A stretch of DNA of 64,000 nucleotides from Microbacterium salitolerans (GTDB taxonomy: Bacteria > Actinomycetota > Actinomycetes > Actinomycetales > Microbacteriaceae). This document shows, piece by piece, positions 56,110 to 63,205 of this stretch. Position numbers and translations under genes: made by a program. The stretch is taken from NCBI RefSeq assembly GCF_019720895.1, contig NZ_JAHKSH010000005.1:186001-250000 (forward strand). The letters are read 5' to 3'. The notes under the pieces were generated by a model that worked only from the letters and a program-made list of their open reading frames with translations, searched no databases and had not been told where the DNA came from. Numbering within the stretch: the first letter of the stretch is position 1; each line of letters begins with the position of its first letter.

Positions 56110-56997
56110 CTAGAGCGTAGCGGCGAACTCTTTGATCCAGGGACGCAGCTCGGGGCCGAGATCCTCGCGGTCGCTCGCGAGCTGCATGATCGCCTTGATG
56201 TAGTCGAGCTTGTCGCCGGTGTCGTAGCGGCGTCCCCGGAAGATGACGCCGTAGACGTCGACGTCGCCGTCGTCGGTCGCGACCTCCTTGAGCGCGTCGG
56301 TGAGCTGGATCTCGTTGCCCTTGCCCGGCTCCGTGTGCTCGAGAACGGGGAAGATCTCGGGCGTGAGGAGGTAGCGGCCGATGATCGCGAGGTTCGAGGG
56401 CGCGTCCTCCTTCGCGGGCTTCTCGACGAGGTCGAGCACCTTGACGACATCGGGGTCGTCGGTCTTCTCGACGGAGGCGCAGCCGTACATGCTGATGGTG
56501 TCGGGGTCGACCTCCATCAGCGCCACGACCATCGCCTTCTTCTTCTCATACGTCTCGATCATCTTCGGGAGCAGCGGGTCGCGCTCGTCGATGAGATCGT
56601 CGCCGAGCATGACGGCGAACGGCGCGTCGCCCACGTGCTGCTTCGCACGATAGACGGCGTGACCGAGGCCCTTCGGCTCGCCCTGACGCAGCAGGTGCAC
56701 GTCGGCGAGGTCGCTCGACTTGCGCACGTTGCCGAGCTTCGTGTCGTCGCCCTTCGCCGTGAGCTTCTCTTCGAGCTCGGGAACCGAGTCGAAGTGATTG
56801 GCGATCGCGTTCTTGTTGCGGCCGATGATCATCAGCACGTCGCGGATCCCGGCCGCGACGGCTTCCTCGACGACGTACTGGATCGCCGGCTTGTCCACGA
56901 CCGGAAGCATCTCCTTGGGAGTCGCCTTGGTCGCGGGGAGGAAGCGGGTGCCGAGACCCGCAACCGGCATGACGGCCTTGATCTTCGCAGGTTCCAT
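56110..56997 (-). CDS. galU: UTP-glucose-1-phosphate uridylyltransferase
   Basis: Makes UDP-glucose for cell-wall and trehalose metabolism. The 295-residue protein has the nucleotide motif GLGTRFLPATKATPKEM at about 14-30, KPAIQYVVEEA, VMLGDDLI with the metal Asp, and VEKPAKEDAPSNLAIIGRY. All are standard GalU features. It is the first gene before the GNAT gene on the minus strand (46-base gap) and divergent from the cyclo-ligase gene. Confidence 0.96.
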   Translation of the reverse strand: MEPAKIKAVMPVAGLGTRFLPATKATPKEMLPVVDKPAIQYVVEEAVAAGIRDVLMIIGRNKNAIANHFDSVPELEEKLTAKGDDTKLGNVRKSSDLADVHLLRQGEPKGLGHAVYRAKQHVGDAPFAVMLGDDLIDERDPLLPKMIETYEKKKAMVVALMEVDPDTISMYGCASVEKTDDPDVVKVLDLVEKPAKEDAPSNLAIIGRYLLTPEIFPVLEHTEPGKGNEIQLTDALKEVATDDGDVDVYGVIFRGRRYDTGDKLDYIKAIMQLASDREDLGPELRPWIKEFAATL

Positions 56998-57071: not shown

Positions 57072-57653
57072 ATGACGGAATCGATCGGCGAGGCGAAGCG
57101 CGCGCTCCGGGCGCGGATCCGCTCATCACGAGACGTGCGGCCCGCGGCGAAGCGGATCGAGGCCGAGGACGGAATCCGCACGCAGGGCTCCGCTCTCGTC
57201 GCGCGCACACGCGCGCGCACGGTCGCGTGCTTCCTTTCCGCCCCCGCCGAACCCCCGACGCGCGCCCTTCTCGCCGACATGGCGGACCAGGGGATCCGCG
57301 TGCTGCTGCCGATCAGCGGGGCGAACGGACGCCTCGACTGGGCGCTCGACACGGGCGAGGAGCGCGCATCGCACCTGGGCGTCCCCGAACCGGCCGGCGA
57401 GCCGCTCGGCGCCCCCGCACTCGAGGAGGCCGACCTGATCCTCGCCCCTGCCGCCGCCGTCGACACGTCGGGTCAGCGCCTCGGGTGGGGGCGCGGCTAC
57501 TACGACCGCGCGCTCTCGGCCCTCCGCACACGGCCGCCCGTCTACGCCGTGATCTATGATCTGGAGGTGGTCGACCGCGTTCCCCACGAGGCACACGACG
57601 TGCCGATGACGGGGGCCGTCACGCCGACCCGCACGCTGTCGTTCGATCGCTGA
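57072..57653 (+). CDS. 5-formyltetrahydrofolate cyclo-ligase
   Basis: ATP-dependent conversion of 5-formyl-THF to 5,10-methenyl-THF. The 193-residue protein has the basic N-terminal KRALRARIRSSRD, the ATP-binding LGWGRGYYDRAL near residue 140, and VPHEAHDVPM at the end, as usual for the family. A possible -10 TAGTCT lies 6 bases before ATG 57072, which could make the mRNA leaderless. It likely leads a transcript with the FmdB-type and mscL genes. Confidence 0.93.
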   Translation: MTESIGEAKRALRARIRSSRDVRPAAKRIEAEDGIRTQGSALVARTRARTVACFLSAPAEPPTRALLADMADQGIRVLLPISGANGRLDWALDTGEERASHLGVPEPAGEPLGAPALEEADLILAPAAAVDTSGQRLGWGRGYYDRALSALRTRPPVYAVIYDLEVVDRVPHEAHDVPMTGAVTPTRTLSFDR

Positions 57654-57703: not shown

Positions 57704-57982
57704 ATGCCCACATACGCCTATGCCTGCAAGGACTGCGCGCACGCCTTCGATGCCGTCCAGTCGTTCAGCGAAGAATCGCTCACCGCATGCCCCCAGTGCG
57801 ACGGGACGCTGCGCAAGCAGTACGGATCCATCGGCGTCACGTTCAACGGAGCCGGCTTCTATCGCACCGACTCGCGCGCCACGACGCCGTCGTCCGGCGC
57901 GGACGCTGGCTCATCCGCCTCGAGCAGTGCATCATCTTCTTCGGCGGCGCCTGCGGCGACCGCCGCTTCGACGGGCGAGTGA
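57704..57982 (+). CDS. FmdB family zinc ribbon protein
   Basis: A 92-residue protein. The first 50 residues form the zinc ribbon with two CxxC pairs (YACKDCAHAF and TACPQCDGTL) and the motif GVTFNGAGFYRTD. The tail is low-complexity Ser/Ala. Family members are common regulators or RNA/protein interaction factors of unknown exact role. It lies 50 bases after the cyclo-ligase gene, and in actinobacteria the FmdB-mscL neighbourhood is frequent. Confidence 0.88.
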   Translation: MPTYAYACKDCAHAFDAVQSFSEESLTACPQCDGTLRKQYGSIGVTFNGAGFYRTDSRATTPSSGADAGSSASSSASSSSAAPAATAASTGE

Positions 57983-58036: not shown

Positions 58037-58441
58037 ATGTTCCAGGGTTTCAAAGAGTTCATCATGCGCGGGAACGTCGTCGAGCTGGCGGTCGCGGTCG
58101 TCATCGGCACGGCGTTCACCGCGATCGTCACGGCCATCGTCGAGTCGATCGTCAACCCCCTCATCGCGCTGTTCTTCTCGGCGGACAGCCTCGCCGAGGC
58201 GCTCCAGGTCGAGGTCCCGGCGTTCTTCGGCGACGGCGTGTCCACCTTCGCGTTCGGCGCGGTGATCGCGGCTCTCGTGAACTTCCTGGCGGTCGCCGTC
58301 GTCGTCTATGTCGCCCTCGTGCTGCCGATGAACAAGCTGGCTGAACGGCGCGCCGCCGGCGCACCCGAAGAGGAGGTCCCGCTCACGCAGGAGGAGCTCC
58401 TCACCGAGATCCGCGACCTTCTCGCCCAGCAGAAGGCATAG
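58037..58441 (+). CDS. mscL: Large-conductance mechanosensitive channel
   Basis: Opens under membrane tension to release solutes on osmotic downshock. The 134-residue protein has the conserved N-terminus FKEFIMRGNVVELAVAVVIGTAF forming helix S1 and TM1, a periplasmic loop, TM2 (GAVIAALVNFLAVAVVVY) and a charged C-terminal helix. A GAGGAGA Shine-Dalgarno precedes ATG 58037. A strong terminator follows. Confidence 0.96.
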   Translation: MFQGFKEFIMRGNVVELAVAVVIGTAFTAIVTAIVESIVNPLIALFFSADSLAEALQVEVPAFFGDGVSTFAFGAVIAALVNFLAVAVVVYVALVLPMNKLAERRAAGAPEEEVPLTQEELLTEIRDLLAQQKA

Positions 58442-58494: not shown

Positions 58495-58698
58495 TCAGGA
58501 GTAGTGCGGCGGGACATCCTGGCGCAGGCGGGCGTCGTTCGGCCCCCGGAAGCCCGACGGATCCACCGGATCCGGCTTGTCGCCACGCAGCGTCGCCTCG
58601 GCCTCCGAGTCGGCGAGCGTGCCCTCGACGCGCGTGAGCCGGGCACGACGGGATCCGCGCACCCGCTCGACGCGCTGTCGGGGCTCGTCGTCAGACAC
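58495..58698 (-). CDS. Small unknown protein coupled to the helicase-like gene
   Basis: A 67-residue hydrophilic, highly charged protein (rich in Arg, Asp, Glu). Its GTG start (58698) overlaps the end of the large helicase-like gene by 8 bases (GTGTCTGA), so it would be translated by coupling. The C-terminus DPSGFRGPNDARLRQDVPPHY looks structured enough to be conserved. No family recognised. The strong terminator just after its stop supports it as the true end of this transcript. Confidence 0.6.
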   Translation of the reverse strand: MSDDEPRQRVERVRGSRRARLTRVEGTLADSEAEATLRGDKPDPVDPSGFRGPNDARLRQDVPPHYS

Positions 58699-61600
58699 GC
58701 TCGGGGAGCGGCTCGGTCTCGCCGTCGGCGCGCGGGACGTCGGGCGCGATGCCGAGCACTGCGGCGACGCGCTCGGCCACCGCACGGGGATCGCTGTACA
58801 GGTCGAAGGCGTGCACGCGCACGTAGTGCCAGCCCAGCCGGCGCAGCACCTGCGGGCGCAGGCGCAGCGACTCGCGCAGCGACTCGGCGCGCGACTCGGG
58901 GTCGGATTCCACGACGACGGCCTTGCCGTTCGCCTGCGCGACGAGCGGCAGCAGCCCGCGGTAGTCGACCTCGACGGCCGCGCCCATGCGACGCAGCTCG
59001 CGGGCGAGGGCGCGCGTGAGCGGATCCGCGTCATCCTCCCGGCGCAGCTCCTTCGCGCGCTCCTCGTACGAGCGCAGGATGTCCATGAGGAGGGCCGCGC
59101 CGTTCGAGAAGCGTCCGTCGTCGATATCCGGCGGCTGCACGCACGAGACGACGACCATCGAGCGGCGCGCGCGCGTCATGCCGACCGTGAGCAGGCGCTC
59201 CCCATCGGCTCCCGACAGGTCGCCCAGCTCGCTGAGCACGCGACCGTGGCGCGTCTTGCCGTACCCGAGCGAGAAGATCACGCGGTCACGGCTCTCGGCG
59301 ACCGACTCCTCGAGCGTGAGCACCGCCAGCGGCTCGGCCGTCTCGCGCGCGACGAAGTCGGCGACGTCGCCGCGCCCCGCGAAGGAGGCCGTGACCGCCG
59401 CGCGCACGCGATCGGCGTGACGACGGCTCGCCGTCACGACCATGAGCGATTCCTTGGGGCGATTCACCGCGTGCTCGACGACGAGCGTCACGACGCGCGC
59501 GACCTCGGCGTCGGGACTCTCGACCGCGCCCGTCTCCGGGTCCGGTGCGCCGTTGCCGCCCTCGATGTAGTCGACCGACAGGCTTCCGCGCCCCAGGTAC
59601 GAGCCGGCCCAGGGCAGCGACACGAGCTCGCCGCCGTAGAACGCGTCGTTGACGAGACGCGCGAGGTCCTCTCCTCCGGCGCGGTAGCTGCGAGTAAGGG
59701 TCTCGACCGGGAGGATCTCGGCGATCCGCTCGAACGCGCTGCGCTCCTCCGAGGGTGCGTCCTCTGTCGGGACGCGCGACGCGGCCGTCGAGATGTCGAA
59801 GGCGGTCGGCCGCTGCGTCACGGGGTCGCCGAAGGCGACGACCTGTCGCGCGCGGCGGATCGCCGGTGCCGCCTCGGCCAGATCGGTCGCCGCCGAGTCG
59901 ACGAGCATCACGACGTCGAATCGGTCATCATCGGCCAGGAGCGGCACATCGTAGGGCGACGCCAGCCACACGGGCGCGAGCGTGCGCATGAGCACGGGCG
60001 CTTCGGCCTGCAGCTGCCGGGGCGTGACCGATCCGCGCATGAGCGCGCGGCGCAGACGATCGGACTCCTCGGGCTCGTCGACGATGCCGATCCTCCACTG
60101 GGCCGCGAGCTGCCACGCGAGCATGGGGCCCGATGCGGCGGCGTGCGCCTCATCGACGAGGCGGAAGTCCTTCTCGAGACGGTCGACGACGCTCGTCGAC
60201 GCGCCGAGCAGCGACTTCTCGGTCCGCAGCACGTGCTCGAGAGCCGACTGCCACCACGCGAACTCGAGCTCCTCGCCCACCCGCGCCTCGTCGACGTGGC
60301 GCACGGAGAGCTCCGTGAGGAGCGGCGCGAGACCCAGCTCGTCGAGACCGGCGCGCAGCTCGGCGCGCTCGACGATGTTCTCGAAGACGTCCGATTCGGC
60401 CGCGAGCCCGGCGAGGGTGCGGATGAGCCGCTCGACGGGCAGCGCGGCGAGCCGCGTGCCGCGGCCGAGTGCCTGGTCGAGCGTCGTCAGGTCGGCCTCG
60501 ATCGCCTGCCACTCGACCTTCACGTCGGCGAGGCCGAGCGGGATCTCGGGAGCGCTCACGCCCTCGACGAGGTGCTGCCACTGCGCCCGCTGATGCTGAA
60601 TCCGCACGAGCGCCTCATGCATGTCGGTCACGTGCACGCCGGGGCGCACGAGCTCGCGCGACAGCCGCTTGAGGCGGCGGCGCTGGCTGCCGGACATTCC
60701 GGCGAAGTCGCGGCGCGATCCGTTCGCCTTGATCATGTCGGACAGGGGCCGCTCGAACGCCAGCGGCTGGAACCGGTCGAGCGAATCGCGGATCCCGTGC
60801 AGCAGGCGCAGGAACTCTCCCAGCTCGTCCAGAGTGGTGAAGGGGCGCATCCGCGTCTGGGAGATGAGCTCGTAGCCGCGCCCGAGCAGGTCCGGGACCC
60901 CCTCGCGGTGCAGCCGTCCGGCGAGGGCGTGCGCCTCTCGCGCGGCCTCCGTCGTCTCGAACGTGACGCCGTACCAGGGCGAGTCGTCGGGGCCGAGGCG
61001 GAATTCGCCGAGGCGCGCGGCGTGCGCAAGAGTGTGCGCCGCCGTCGTGCGGTCGCCCGCGAGCTTCTCGAGCGCCCGGATGTCGAGGCGCGCCGACGAC
61101 GACGGCGGCGTGGGCAGCGACGCGAGACGCGTGAGCTCGCGGGTCATCTCGATGACCGAGACGCCGAGCGCCTCATGCGGGCGGGTCAGGGCGTCGCGGT
61201 AGTCGCGCAGCACGGTTCGAAGGCGCACGAGCGCGTCGTCGATCTCGGAGACGTTCGGCTGCTCGGCCTTCTCATTGCGGCCGATCGCGCGGATGAGATC
61301 GCTGCGCAGACTCGTCGGTGAGACGGCCAGGGAGTCGAGGTGGATCCCCCGCAGCCGGTGAGCGACGCCCTCGAGCGTCGAACGTCGAGCGCTCACGACG
61401 AGAACGCGCTTGCCGGCGCGCACCAGCTGCCCGACGGCGTTGATCACCGTCTGGGTGCCCCCGGTACCGGGGAGCGTGTGCACGGCGAGCGACTCGCCGG
61501 CCATGATCCGGGCGAGCACCGCCTCCTGCTCGGCGTCGGCGTCGAGGAGGAGGGTGTCGGAAGCCGGCGCACGGTCATCGGGGCTCGTCGCCGCGGCGAG

Positions 61601-62413
61601 CGCGCGCGGCTCCTGGATCTGGCGCAGCTCCTCTTCGTGCCCGCCGAGGGCGTTGAGGAGCGGGTGATCGATGCGGACGAGGTCGCGGACCATGGGGCCC
61701 GAGACGTCCGCGAACGTCGAGATGAACAGGCGCGCCTTGACCGAGAACGTGTCGACGTGAGCCGTGAGCCCACGCAGACGGTCGATGACGGGCTGCGGCT
61801 GGAAGAGGCCGTCGTCGTACGCCAGCGCGGCGAGCGCATCGCCGTCGATGTCGACACCGAAGTGATCGCGGGCCGCGCGCAGCAGCTCGGGGTTGACGAC
61901 GAATCCGCCGCGCAGCTTCAGCTCGAAGTCGGCGTGGTGGCGACGCAGCGCGAGCGGGCGCAGGAGAACCGGCGCCGTGAAGCGCTCGGAGCCGACGCGC
62001 CATGACGCGAGACCGACCGCCAGTCGCACGGCGTCGATGCCGCGCGCCGTGCGCAGCTCGACGTTCTTGGCGGCGATGCGCTCGGCGGCGAGGCGGGCGC
62101 CGCGGAGGGCCACTTCGTCGCGGAAGAGATTGGACAGGAGCGTCGAGCGCCCCGTGATGAACTGCGGAAGGCTTCCGGGGTGCGCCGTCGTGATCTCGAT
62201 GAACGACTCGGGAGCCTCTCGATAGCGGAGAAGGGTCGAGTCCCCGCCGAGACCCGCCGCGAGCTGTCGGAGCCGTTCGCGCTCCGCATCGGCGACGTGC
62301 GCGATCGGCACGCCGGGTTCGGCCACCTGCAGATCGCTCGGAGTCACGCCGTCCGCCGATCCGGACAGCGCCGCTGAGCCCTTGATACGCCACACACGCG
62401 CAAGGGTACGCAC
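58691..62413 (-). CDS. Degenerate superfamily-1 helicase fused to a Vsr-like nuclease-fold domain
   Basis: A 1240-residue protein with the layout of DUF4011-type SF1 helicases that end in the REase_MTES_1575 (Vsr-like) domain. The expected Walker A GTGKSQT reads GTGGTQT (lysine replaced by Gly319) and Walker B DEAS reads DSAA (Asp839, Ser840). Motif III is GDPVTQRP (862-869) and motif V lacks its QGxE core, yet TRSYRAG (907) and MTRAR (1079) persist. The nuclease-like end (about 1140-1225) keeps VVESD and GWHYVRVHAFDLYSDP. ATP hydrolysis seems unlikely, so it may be a structural or DNA-binding descendant. ATG 62413 is the best start. Confidence 0.82.
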   Translation of the reverse strand: MRTLARVWRIKGSAALSGSADGVTPSDLQVAEPGVPIAHVADAERERLRQLAAGLGGDSTLLRYREAPESFIEITTAHPGSLPQFITGRSTLLSNLFRDEVALRGARLAAERIAAKNVELRTARGIDAVRLAVGLASWRVGSERFTAPVLLRPLALRRHHADFELKLRGGFVVNPELLRAARDHFGVDIDGDALAALAYDDGLFQPQPVIDRLRGLTAHVDTFSVKARLFISTFADVSGPMVRDLVRIDHPLLNALGGHEEELRQIQEPRALAAATSPDDRAPASDTLLLDADAEQEAVLARIMAGESLAVHTLPGTGGTQTVINAVGQLVRAGKRVLVVSARRSTLEGVAHRLRGIHLDSLAVSPTSLRSDLIRAIGRNEKAEQPNVSEIDDALVRLRTVLRDYRDALTRPHEALGVSVIEMTRELTRLASLPTPPSSSARLDIRALEKLAGDRTTAAHTLAHAARLGEFRLGPDDSPWYGVTFETTEAAREAHALAGRLHREGVPDLLGRGYELISQTRMRPFTTLDELGEFLRLLHGIRDSLDRFQPLAFERPLSDMIKANGSRRDFAGMSGSQRRRLKRLSRELVRPGVHVTDMHEALVRIQHQRAQWQHLVEGVSAPEIPLGLADVKVEWQAIEADLTTLDQALGRGTRLAALPVERLIRTLAGLAAESDVFENIVERAELRAGLDELGLAPLLTELSVRHVDEARVGEELEFAWWQSALEHVLRTEKSLLGASTSVVDRLEKDFRLVDEAHAAASGPMLAWQLAAQWRIGIVDEPEESDRLRRALMRGSVTPRQLQAEAPVLMRTLAPVWLASPYDVPLLADDDRFDVVMLVDSAATDLAEAAPAIRRARQVVAFGDPVTQRPTAFDISTAASRVPTEDAPSEERSAFERIAEILPVETLTRSYRAGGEDLARLVNDAFYGGELVSLPWAGSYLGRGSLSVDYIEGGNGAPDPETGAVESPDAEVARVVTLVVEHAVNRPKESLMVVTASRRHADRVRAAVTASFAGRGDVADFVARETAEPLAVLTLEESVAESRDRVIFSLGYGKTRHGRVLSELGDLSGADGERLLTVGMTRARRSMVVVSCVQPPDIDDGRFSNGAALLMDILRSYEERAKELRREDDADPLTRALARELRRMGAAVEVDYRGLLPLVAQANGKAVVVESDPESRAESLRESLRLRPQVLRRLGWHYVRVHAFDLYSDPRAVAERVAAVLGIAPDVPRADGETEPLPERV

Positions 62414-62596: not shown

Positions 62597-63205
62597 ATGA
62601 GCGACACAGCAGAGACCCCCGGCGTCGTCACGGGTGCCGACGGCCTGGCCCGACCGGCGTGGGCCGAGCAGAGCGACCTCCTCCGCGACTACTACGACAC
62701 CGAGTGGGGCATGCCGGTGCGAGACGAGCAGGGAGTGTTCGAGCGGCTGAGCCTCGAGGCATTCCAGTCGGGGCTGTCGTGGGCGACCGTGCTGCGCAAG
62801 CGTCCGGCCTTCCGCGACGCATTCGCGGGGTTCGACCCCGACCGCGTGGCGCGCTTCGACGACGACGATGTCGAGCGGCTGATGGACGACGCGGCCATCA
62901 TCCGCAACAGAGCGAAGATCCTCGCGACGATCGACAACGCGCGGGCGACCCTCTCGCTTCGCGACGACGGCACCGACCTCGCCGAGTTCGTCTGGAGCTT
63001 CCGGCCCGACGAGACGCCGGCTCCGGTCGCGCCAGGCGACGTCCCGTCGACGAGCGCAGAGTCCCTCGCCCTCTCGAAGGAGCTCAAGCGCCGTGGCTTC
63101 CGCTGGGTCGGCCCGACGACGATGTTCGCCCTCATGGAGGCGATCGGAATCGTCGACACGCACCTGGTCGCCAGCCACCGCCGCGGCACGAGCGGCGTCT
63201 GGTAG
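62597..63205 (+). CDS. tag: DNA-3-methyladenine glycosylase I (variant without zinc-snap cysteines)
   Basis: Excises 3-methyladenine from DNA. The 202-residue protein has the catalytic region FERLSLEAFQSGLSWATVLRKR with the conserved Glu and Trp, then DAAIIRNRAKILATIDNA and FRWVGPTTMFALMEAIGIVDTH. In E. coli Tag a zinc is held by Cys4, His17, His175 and Cys179; here the first two positions read RPAW and DYYDTEWG and the C-terminus has no Cys, so the zinc snap is probably absent. ATG 62597 precedes the normal N-terminus. Confidence 0.9.
   Translation: MSDTAETPGVVTGADGLARPAWAEQSDLLRDYYDTEWGMPVRDEQGVFERLSLEAFQSGLSWATVLRKRPAFRDAFAGFDPDRVARFDDDDVERLMDDAAIIRNRAKILATIDNARATLSLRDDGTDLAEFVWSFRPDETPAPVAPGDVPSTSAESLALSKELKRRGFRWVGPTTMFALMEAIGIVDTHLVASHRRGTSGVW

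Follow-up and report, generated by a model that had tools for sequence, protein, structure and literature searches.

Why would a genome keep a helicase-nuclease gene whose catalytic motifs are disabled? The question is raised by a gene in a 64,000-nucleotide stretch of Microbacterium salitolerans DNA (NZ_JAHKSH010000005.1, positions 186,001 to 250,000; the whole stretch is called the window here). An original prediction, made from the letters alone, had described it as a vertically kept, disabled derivative of a DUF4011-helicase-Vsr protein, a description that is supported, with the gene under purifying selection at a fixed locus as reported below. The window gene was found to be the mscL-fmdB-locus orthologue of a vertically inherited, Upf1-like helicase of superfamily 1B (SF1B) whose N-terminus is DUF4011-like and whose nuclease fold is of Vsr type. 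The ATP site of this protein has been lost more than once, with five changes in the best tree, and in the family of the window gene the nuclease site has gone too; the gene itself has almost never been lost. The catalytic loss, as read from the motifs, is well supported.

Catalytic motifs and domain layout of the window protein

The open frame (58691..62413, minus strand, as for all features of the gene) encodes 1240 residues without internal stops, as originally described, and is matched by orthologues. Its real start is probably the GTG at codon 7 (62395; 'MWRIKG', 1234 residues), a choice suggested by the 8-mer GTGTGGCG, which 52 of the 55 upstream stretches contain, counted at any position. 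A scan for sigma-70 promoters and terminators found none.

Alignment with intact orthologues places G319 of the disabled P-loop (GTGGTQT, residues 316-322; 61448..61468) on the P-loop lysine, as the original prediction had it. The same alignment locates the disabled motif II (MLVDSAA, residues 836-842 with VDSAA at 838-842; 59888..59908). Aligned without gaps, FDVVMLVDSA of the window protein faces FDVVVFDEAS of the intact proteins, so that D838 is replaced by valine and E839 by aspartate; the replacement of the Walker B glutamate by serine proposed earlier assumes a one-residue shift, but the DE dyad is broken under either alignment. Motif V reads AESRD instead of GDERD: its GDE core is gone, as had been claimed, but the RD pair (1042-1043) is still present. 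Although disabling had been reported for the ATPase only, the nuclease site is affected as well, with P1156-E1169-D1171 in the window protein versus D-E-D in the intact homologue L166 (L, G and f are our labels for loci, genomes and families). The protein therefore has neither the intact GKS/GKT P-loop and motif II DE of an SF1B helicase nor the D, E, D of an active Vsr-type nuclease as in L166, and the predicted loss of both ATPase and nuclease chemistry is strongly supported.

Around these motifs the domain layout remains recognizable, with profile scores for the window protein below the Pfam cut-offs. The DUF4011-like N-terminal domain (residues 45-275; 61589..62281), which is conserved in degenerate families, matches DUF4011 (PF13195) weakly at 112-178 (14.0 bits, gathering threshold 22.2; 28.8 bits for the intact orthologue L101). 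A long helical insert between the RecA1 halves (residues 400-760; 60134..61216) carries a conserved RRRL...RPG...H...W pattern. The RecA2-like domain (residues 890-1095; 59129..59746) contains the eroded motif V and a motif VI that is present (GMTRARR, 1078-1084), and matches AAA_12 at 890-1091 (23.2 bits, cut-off 27). The Vsr-like nuclease fold (residues 1120-1220; 58754..59056), with its first acidic residue gone and E1169 and D1171 present, matches REase_MTES_1575 (PF18741) at 1162-1219 (25.5 bits, gathering threshold 38.2); this threshold was exceeded by L101 (75.2), L103 (63.6), L112 (45.2) and L132 (41.0), with L082 below it (30.8). Since L101 passes the Pfam cut-offs for DUF4011, AAA_11, AAA_12 and MTES_1575, the layout of the window protein was assigned by orthology. 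A RecA-type fold related to Upf1/Ighmbp2/Dna2 was recovered by Foldseek and VIA, leaving aside the poorly modelled C-terminal part, and the protein matches the Ighmbp2 profile with an E-value of 8.7e-12.

Repeated loss of the ATP site at a conserved locus

A contig scan gave 57 loci, nearly all from Microbacterium, with 66-87% identity in the best segment. Residue 319 was scored across these orthologues, a check proposed with the original prediction, and the P-loop lysine was absent in all 55 readable loci (52 with GTGGTQT, two with GTGSMQT and one with GTGGMQT; two of the 57 were unreadable). The absence is therefore neither chance nor sequence error, and strain-specific decay was ruled out on the same count. 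A full open frame was present in 54 of the 57 loci. The other three are L056, which is broken into two frames, and L046 and L052, which contig ends truncate.

Families f5 and f18 have intact copies at the same locus, with a GPPGTGKSQT or GTGKTQT P-loop, DEAS in motif II and, in most of them, the nuclease D-E-D; all nine neighbourhoods of such copies (L218-L225, L230) contain both mscL and fmdB. The original prediction had held that orthologues with intact GKS/GKT and DE motifs would mark the window copy as merely decaying or erroneous. Such orthologues do exist, but they show repeated old inactivation rather than local decay or sequence error. Across 158 genomes of the order with a readable P-loop, picked for spread over families with deliberate sampling of f18 and f5 and not drawn at random from the 297 sampled, the lysine was kept in 14 and absent in 144; the keepers are 12 of 21 genomes in f18 and two of three in f5. 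The f26 entry in this count (L184) is not a loss, its P-loop lying outside the locus.

In an IQ-TREE tree of 43 rows with the trait columns removed, the lysine state requires at least five changes, and in a quick tree of 110 rows without L253 it requires three. The grouping of the order's disabled rows into one clade was rejected by the approximately unbiased (AU) test (p = 2.55e-5), as was that of all disabled rows (p 2.0e-5); a single clade of the disabled f18 rows alone was not rejected (p 0.088). On the best tree the losses map to f38/f25, to the main clade, where the window gene belongs, to a single f5 genus and to the interior of f18. The f5 loss rests on a single partial row, L253, from a genome that is 73% complete, and support for the whole order as one clade apart from f38 is only 89/94. 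Because intact orthologues share the locus and the disabled copies do not form one clade, the ATP site was disabled on more than one occasion, and a single loss is firmly excluded. The direction is loss rather than gain, since the outgroups are intact and regaining several motifs at once is implausible. No count rests on the motif II pattern search of homologues, a pattern that could find intact-like motifs only. The alignment held 117 rows, of which L253, L246, L130, L131, L142, L180 and L184 were left out of the 110-row tree.

Homologues away from the locus kept the lysine in eight of nine cases with a readable P-loop (L166, L181, L183, L234, L291-L293 and L296), the exception being L169 (f25, G301) with GTGRSQT. 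Two of these proteins, outside the order and away from mscL, differ further: L169 also lacks the DE dyad, and L166 (G339) is fully intact.

Of the 13 rows with the lysine, 12 have the nuclease D-E-D; of the 95 without it, 11 do, all of them in f6, f7, f15 and f16 (totals exclude L253, L246, L130, L131, L142, L184 and the outgroup rows). This distribution suggests that the ATPase was apparently lost before the nuclease. In three f7 rows (L097, L098, L100) and six f6 rows the ATPase is dead and the triad is kept, so that the nuclease could still act. Family f18 mixes intact and disabled copies (L103/L247 in g85, L104/L243 in g72, L249/L250 in g44) and so provides natural replicates at different stages of inactivation.

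The gene was matched at an E-value of 1e-10 in 292 of the 297 sampled genomes of the order and, where completeness was at least 90%, in 279 of 281. A profile search of the five remaining genomes gave three weak matches and none in two, G070 and G129, both of good quality. Genomes of 0.8-1.1 Mb (G053, G180, G204) retain the gene; L140 and L148, from genomes of 0.8-0.9 Mb, are copies of about 1200 residues that are catalytically eroded and still kept despite strong reduction. A class-wide sample gave matches in 32 of 148 genomes, ten of them from family f38, and a search of f38 itself gave 22 of 22. This family has the same mscL-fmdB locus (L207, L217, L232, L233).

Neighbourhoods were compared at 104 gene-bearing loci, comprising the 57 above with flanks of at most 5 kb and 47 further ones, in stretches of at most 20 kb. 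The convergent neighbour (58037..58441, plus strand), which we take to be mscL, following the original prediction, was found at 93 of the 104 loci. A zinc-ribbon gene, presumably fmdB (57704..57982, plus strand), was found at 96, a presumed 5-formyltetrahydrofolate cyclo-ligase gene (57072..57653, plus strand) at 85 and a galU-like gene (56110..56997, minus strand) at 70, these three names being our assumption from the sequences. The divergent neighbour (62597..63205, plus strand), assumed from the original prediction to be tag (3-methyladenine DNA glycosylase), was present at only 17, so that of the suggested synteny with tag and mscL only the mscL part holds, with fmdB in addition. At least one of mscL and fmdB occurs at 42 of the 47 further loci; both are missing at L203 and L211 (both f12), L228 (G339), L229 (G301) and L234, a second homologue in G050. 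Recent horizontal gain of the gene was ruled out by this synteny.

Retained constraint and candidate functions

The ratio of nonsynonymous to synonymous rates (dN/dS) in 55 sequences had a median of 0.263 (1475 pairs with dS 0.1-1.3), far below 1, and the check proposed with the original prediction thus indicates purifying selection. The closest pair gave 0.019, and the values are biased upwards because dS saturates in GC-rich genes. By part, dN/dS was lowest in RecA2 (0.138) and the nuclease fold (0.153), followed by RecA1 (0.194), the insert (0.274), the N-terminus (0.32) and residues 761-890 (0.391). In the 95 disabled rows, 93 positions are conserved in at least 85% (family-weighted). They include A77, H78, P79, G81, P148 and N174 in the N-terminal domain; R578, R590, P591, H599 and W612 in the helical insert; E970, L990, H999, R1042, D1043 and G1064 in RecA2; and D1171, G1194 and W1195 in the nuclease fold. 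At 44 further positions, residues conserved among the intact proteins have been lost from the disabled ones; these include E839, Q866, W908, H909, S912, E1041 and K319, the last by construction of the two groups.

Because catalysis was lost repeatedly while the gene was retained, the selected function would be a non-catalytic one. This pattern suggests that the cell needs the structure of the protein and not its catalysis. We consider it about an even bet (probability near 0.5) that, by analogy, the protein acts as a large ATP-independent scaffold that binds nucleic acid and works with a partner machine. In this picture a strand would be held or guided by the RecA pair and the nuclease fold, both inert, and the partner machine, which would do the chemistry, would dock on the long helical arm; the inactivated domains may thus be used as in RecC and AddB. 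A broader proposal is tentative: across the whole order and a second family of the class, a defence-type helicase-nuclease may have become an indispensable structural protein at one locus; the switching off, first of the ATPase and then of the nuclease, would have been favoured by selection again and again, or never opposed by it, while nearly all readable relatives elsewhere stayed intact.

Several observations weigh against the scaffold. Disabled rows lie further from the outgroup than intact ones (median 2.38, n 31, versus 1.67, n 10), so that constraint has been relaxed rather than fully kept. Motifs IV-VI are also eroded in f3, f4, f9, f10, f14 and f20, and therefore nucleic-acid contacts may not persist everywhere. 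Split copies occur, if rarely (L056 and L258/L262 in G245). No conserved operon partner was seen, and only one of the 55 upstream stretches has a LexA-like box. PDDEXK_1 proteins, presumably of AdnAB/RecB type, were found in all 20 genomes tested, often as paired long frames resembling AdnAB, which does not discriminate on partnership. The predicted model has a mean predicted local distance difference test score (pLDDT) of 63.9 and is of low quality except in RecA1 and the helical insert; a separate model of the C-terminal 336 residues (pLDDT 48.2) was not used.

The closest relatives by profile are named anti-phage proteins, and the dead protein might accordingly be a guard, decoy or regulator in phage defence that detects phage or a phage inhibitor, or keeps a different defence nuclease in check, with its shape conserved but not its catalysis. 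The best NCBIfam match is ProA (NF058533; 297.9 bits, E 1.4e-88, best stretch 596-1221), below its cut-off of 1500, which even the intact L101 misses (807.2 bits); Hhe (NF042953) scored 139.2 bits against a cut-off of 2000, and PADLOC gave 296.8 bits for PDC-S37 and 106.8 for Hhe. However, the fixed locus, the housekeeping neighbours and the near-universal presence are unlike most defence genes, and we regard such a role as unlikely. Nor is there a second full-length family member in the same genome, so that an active one was ruled out; the only partial match (27%) is L002 (C5:416199-416699), a different helicase with a frame of about 1600 residues, an intact GPPGTGKSHT and partial similarity to the window protein. 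Somewhat less likely again is an RNA-directed scaffold that, like relatives of Upf1, Senataxin and Aquarius, would act on RNA or transcription complexes, but without ATP. The structural neighbours include Ighmbp2, Upf1, Sen1, Senataxin and Aquarius, but the same lists hold the DNA helicases Dna2, UvrD and RecD2; the fold shows no substrate, and the tail is related to a Vsr-type nuclease.

ATP might still be used through a non-canonical site built from what is left of the Q-motif, motif III and motif VI, given that at least 85% (family-weighted) of disabled rows retain Q296, G862-D863 and R1083 and that the motif VI TRAR is nearly invariant in Microbacterium. We find this distinctly improbable, as the lysine has become G, Q, A, R, L, S, V, M, I, N or T by lineage, with no common substitute, and motif II is altered as well. 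That the gene is a decaying former defence gene retained by chance seems highly improbable: the longer branches of disabled rows and the occasional split copies would fit decay, whereas the full frames at nearly all loci, the low dN/dS and retention in reduced genomes speak against it.

Relation to known systems

Pseudoenzymes are usually viewed as one-off events after duplication. Here the catalytic centres of an orthologue that is nearly always retained were lost more than once, and copies with intact motifs persist at the same locus. These lineages provide natural replicates in which to ask what role a helicase-nuclease can have without ATP, and they draw attention to a core protein of more than 1200 residues that is unstudied. 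We found no study of this gene in the literature searched on DUF4011 and related subjects, and a search on essentiality returned nothing. Utp25 has reportedly been treated as a pseudohelicase in one study.

RecC and AddB are UvrD-like subunits of known complexes. Their inactivated nuclease-like or helicase-like domains serve DNA guiding or recognition (PMC1185551; PMC4824097); the likeness to the window protein, whose orthologues were inactivated repeatedly, is one of logic only. The end domain takes its name from MTES_1575, as the original prediction stated in calling it after a Microbacterium protein, but MTES_1575 is a different protein, a giant of more than 2100 residues with HEPN, transglutaminase, SF1 helicase and Vsr domains (PMC3710099). 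In Pseudomonas aeruginosa, a DUF4011 gene present in every isolate flanks the defence hotspot cDHS1 (PMC10250203); its likeness to the window gene, in DUF4011 and in wide presence, is one of description only.

Compared with the Upf1-like SF1B helicases (Ighmbp2, Dna2, Upf1, Senataxin, Aquarius), the window protein shares the RecA1 fold and profile similarity but lacks the P-loop lysine and the DE dyad. ProA is its best profile match, but the window protein has 1240 residues against a model of 1903 positions and has lost its ATPase motifs. Hhe, as defined by NF042953 and PADLOC, and the window protein are both DUF4011-helicase relatives, the latter without the catalytic motifs and at a conserved chromosomal locus.

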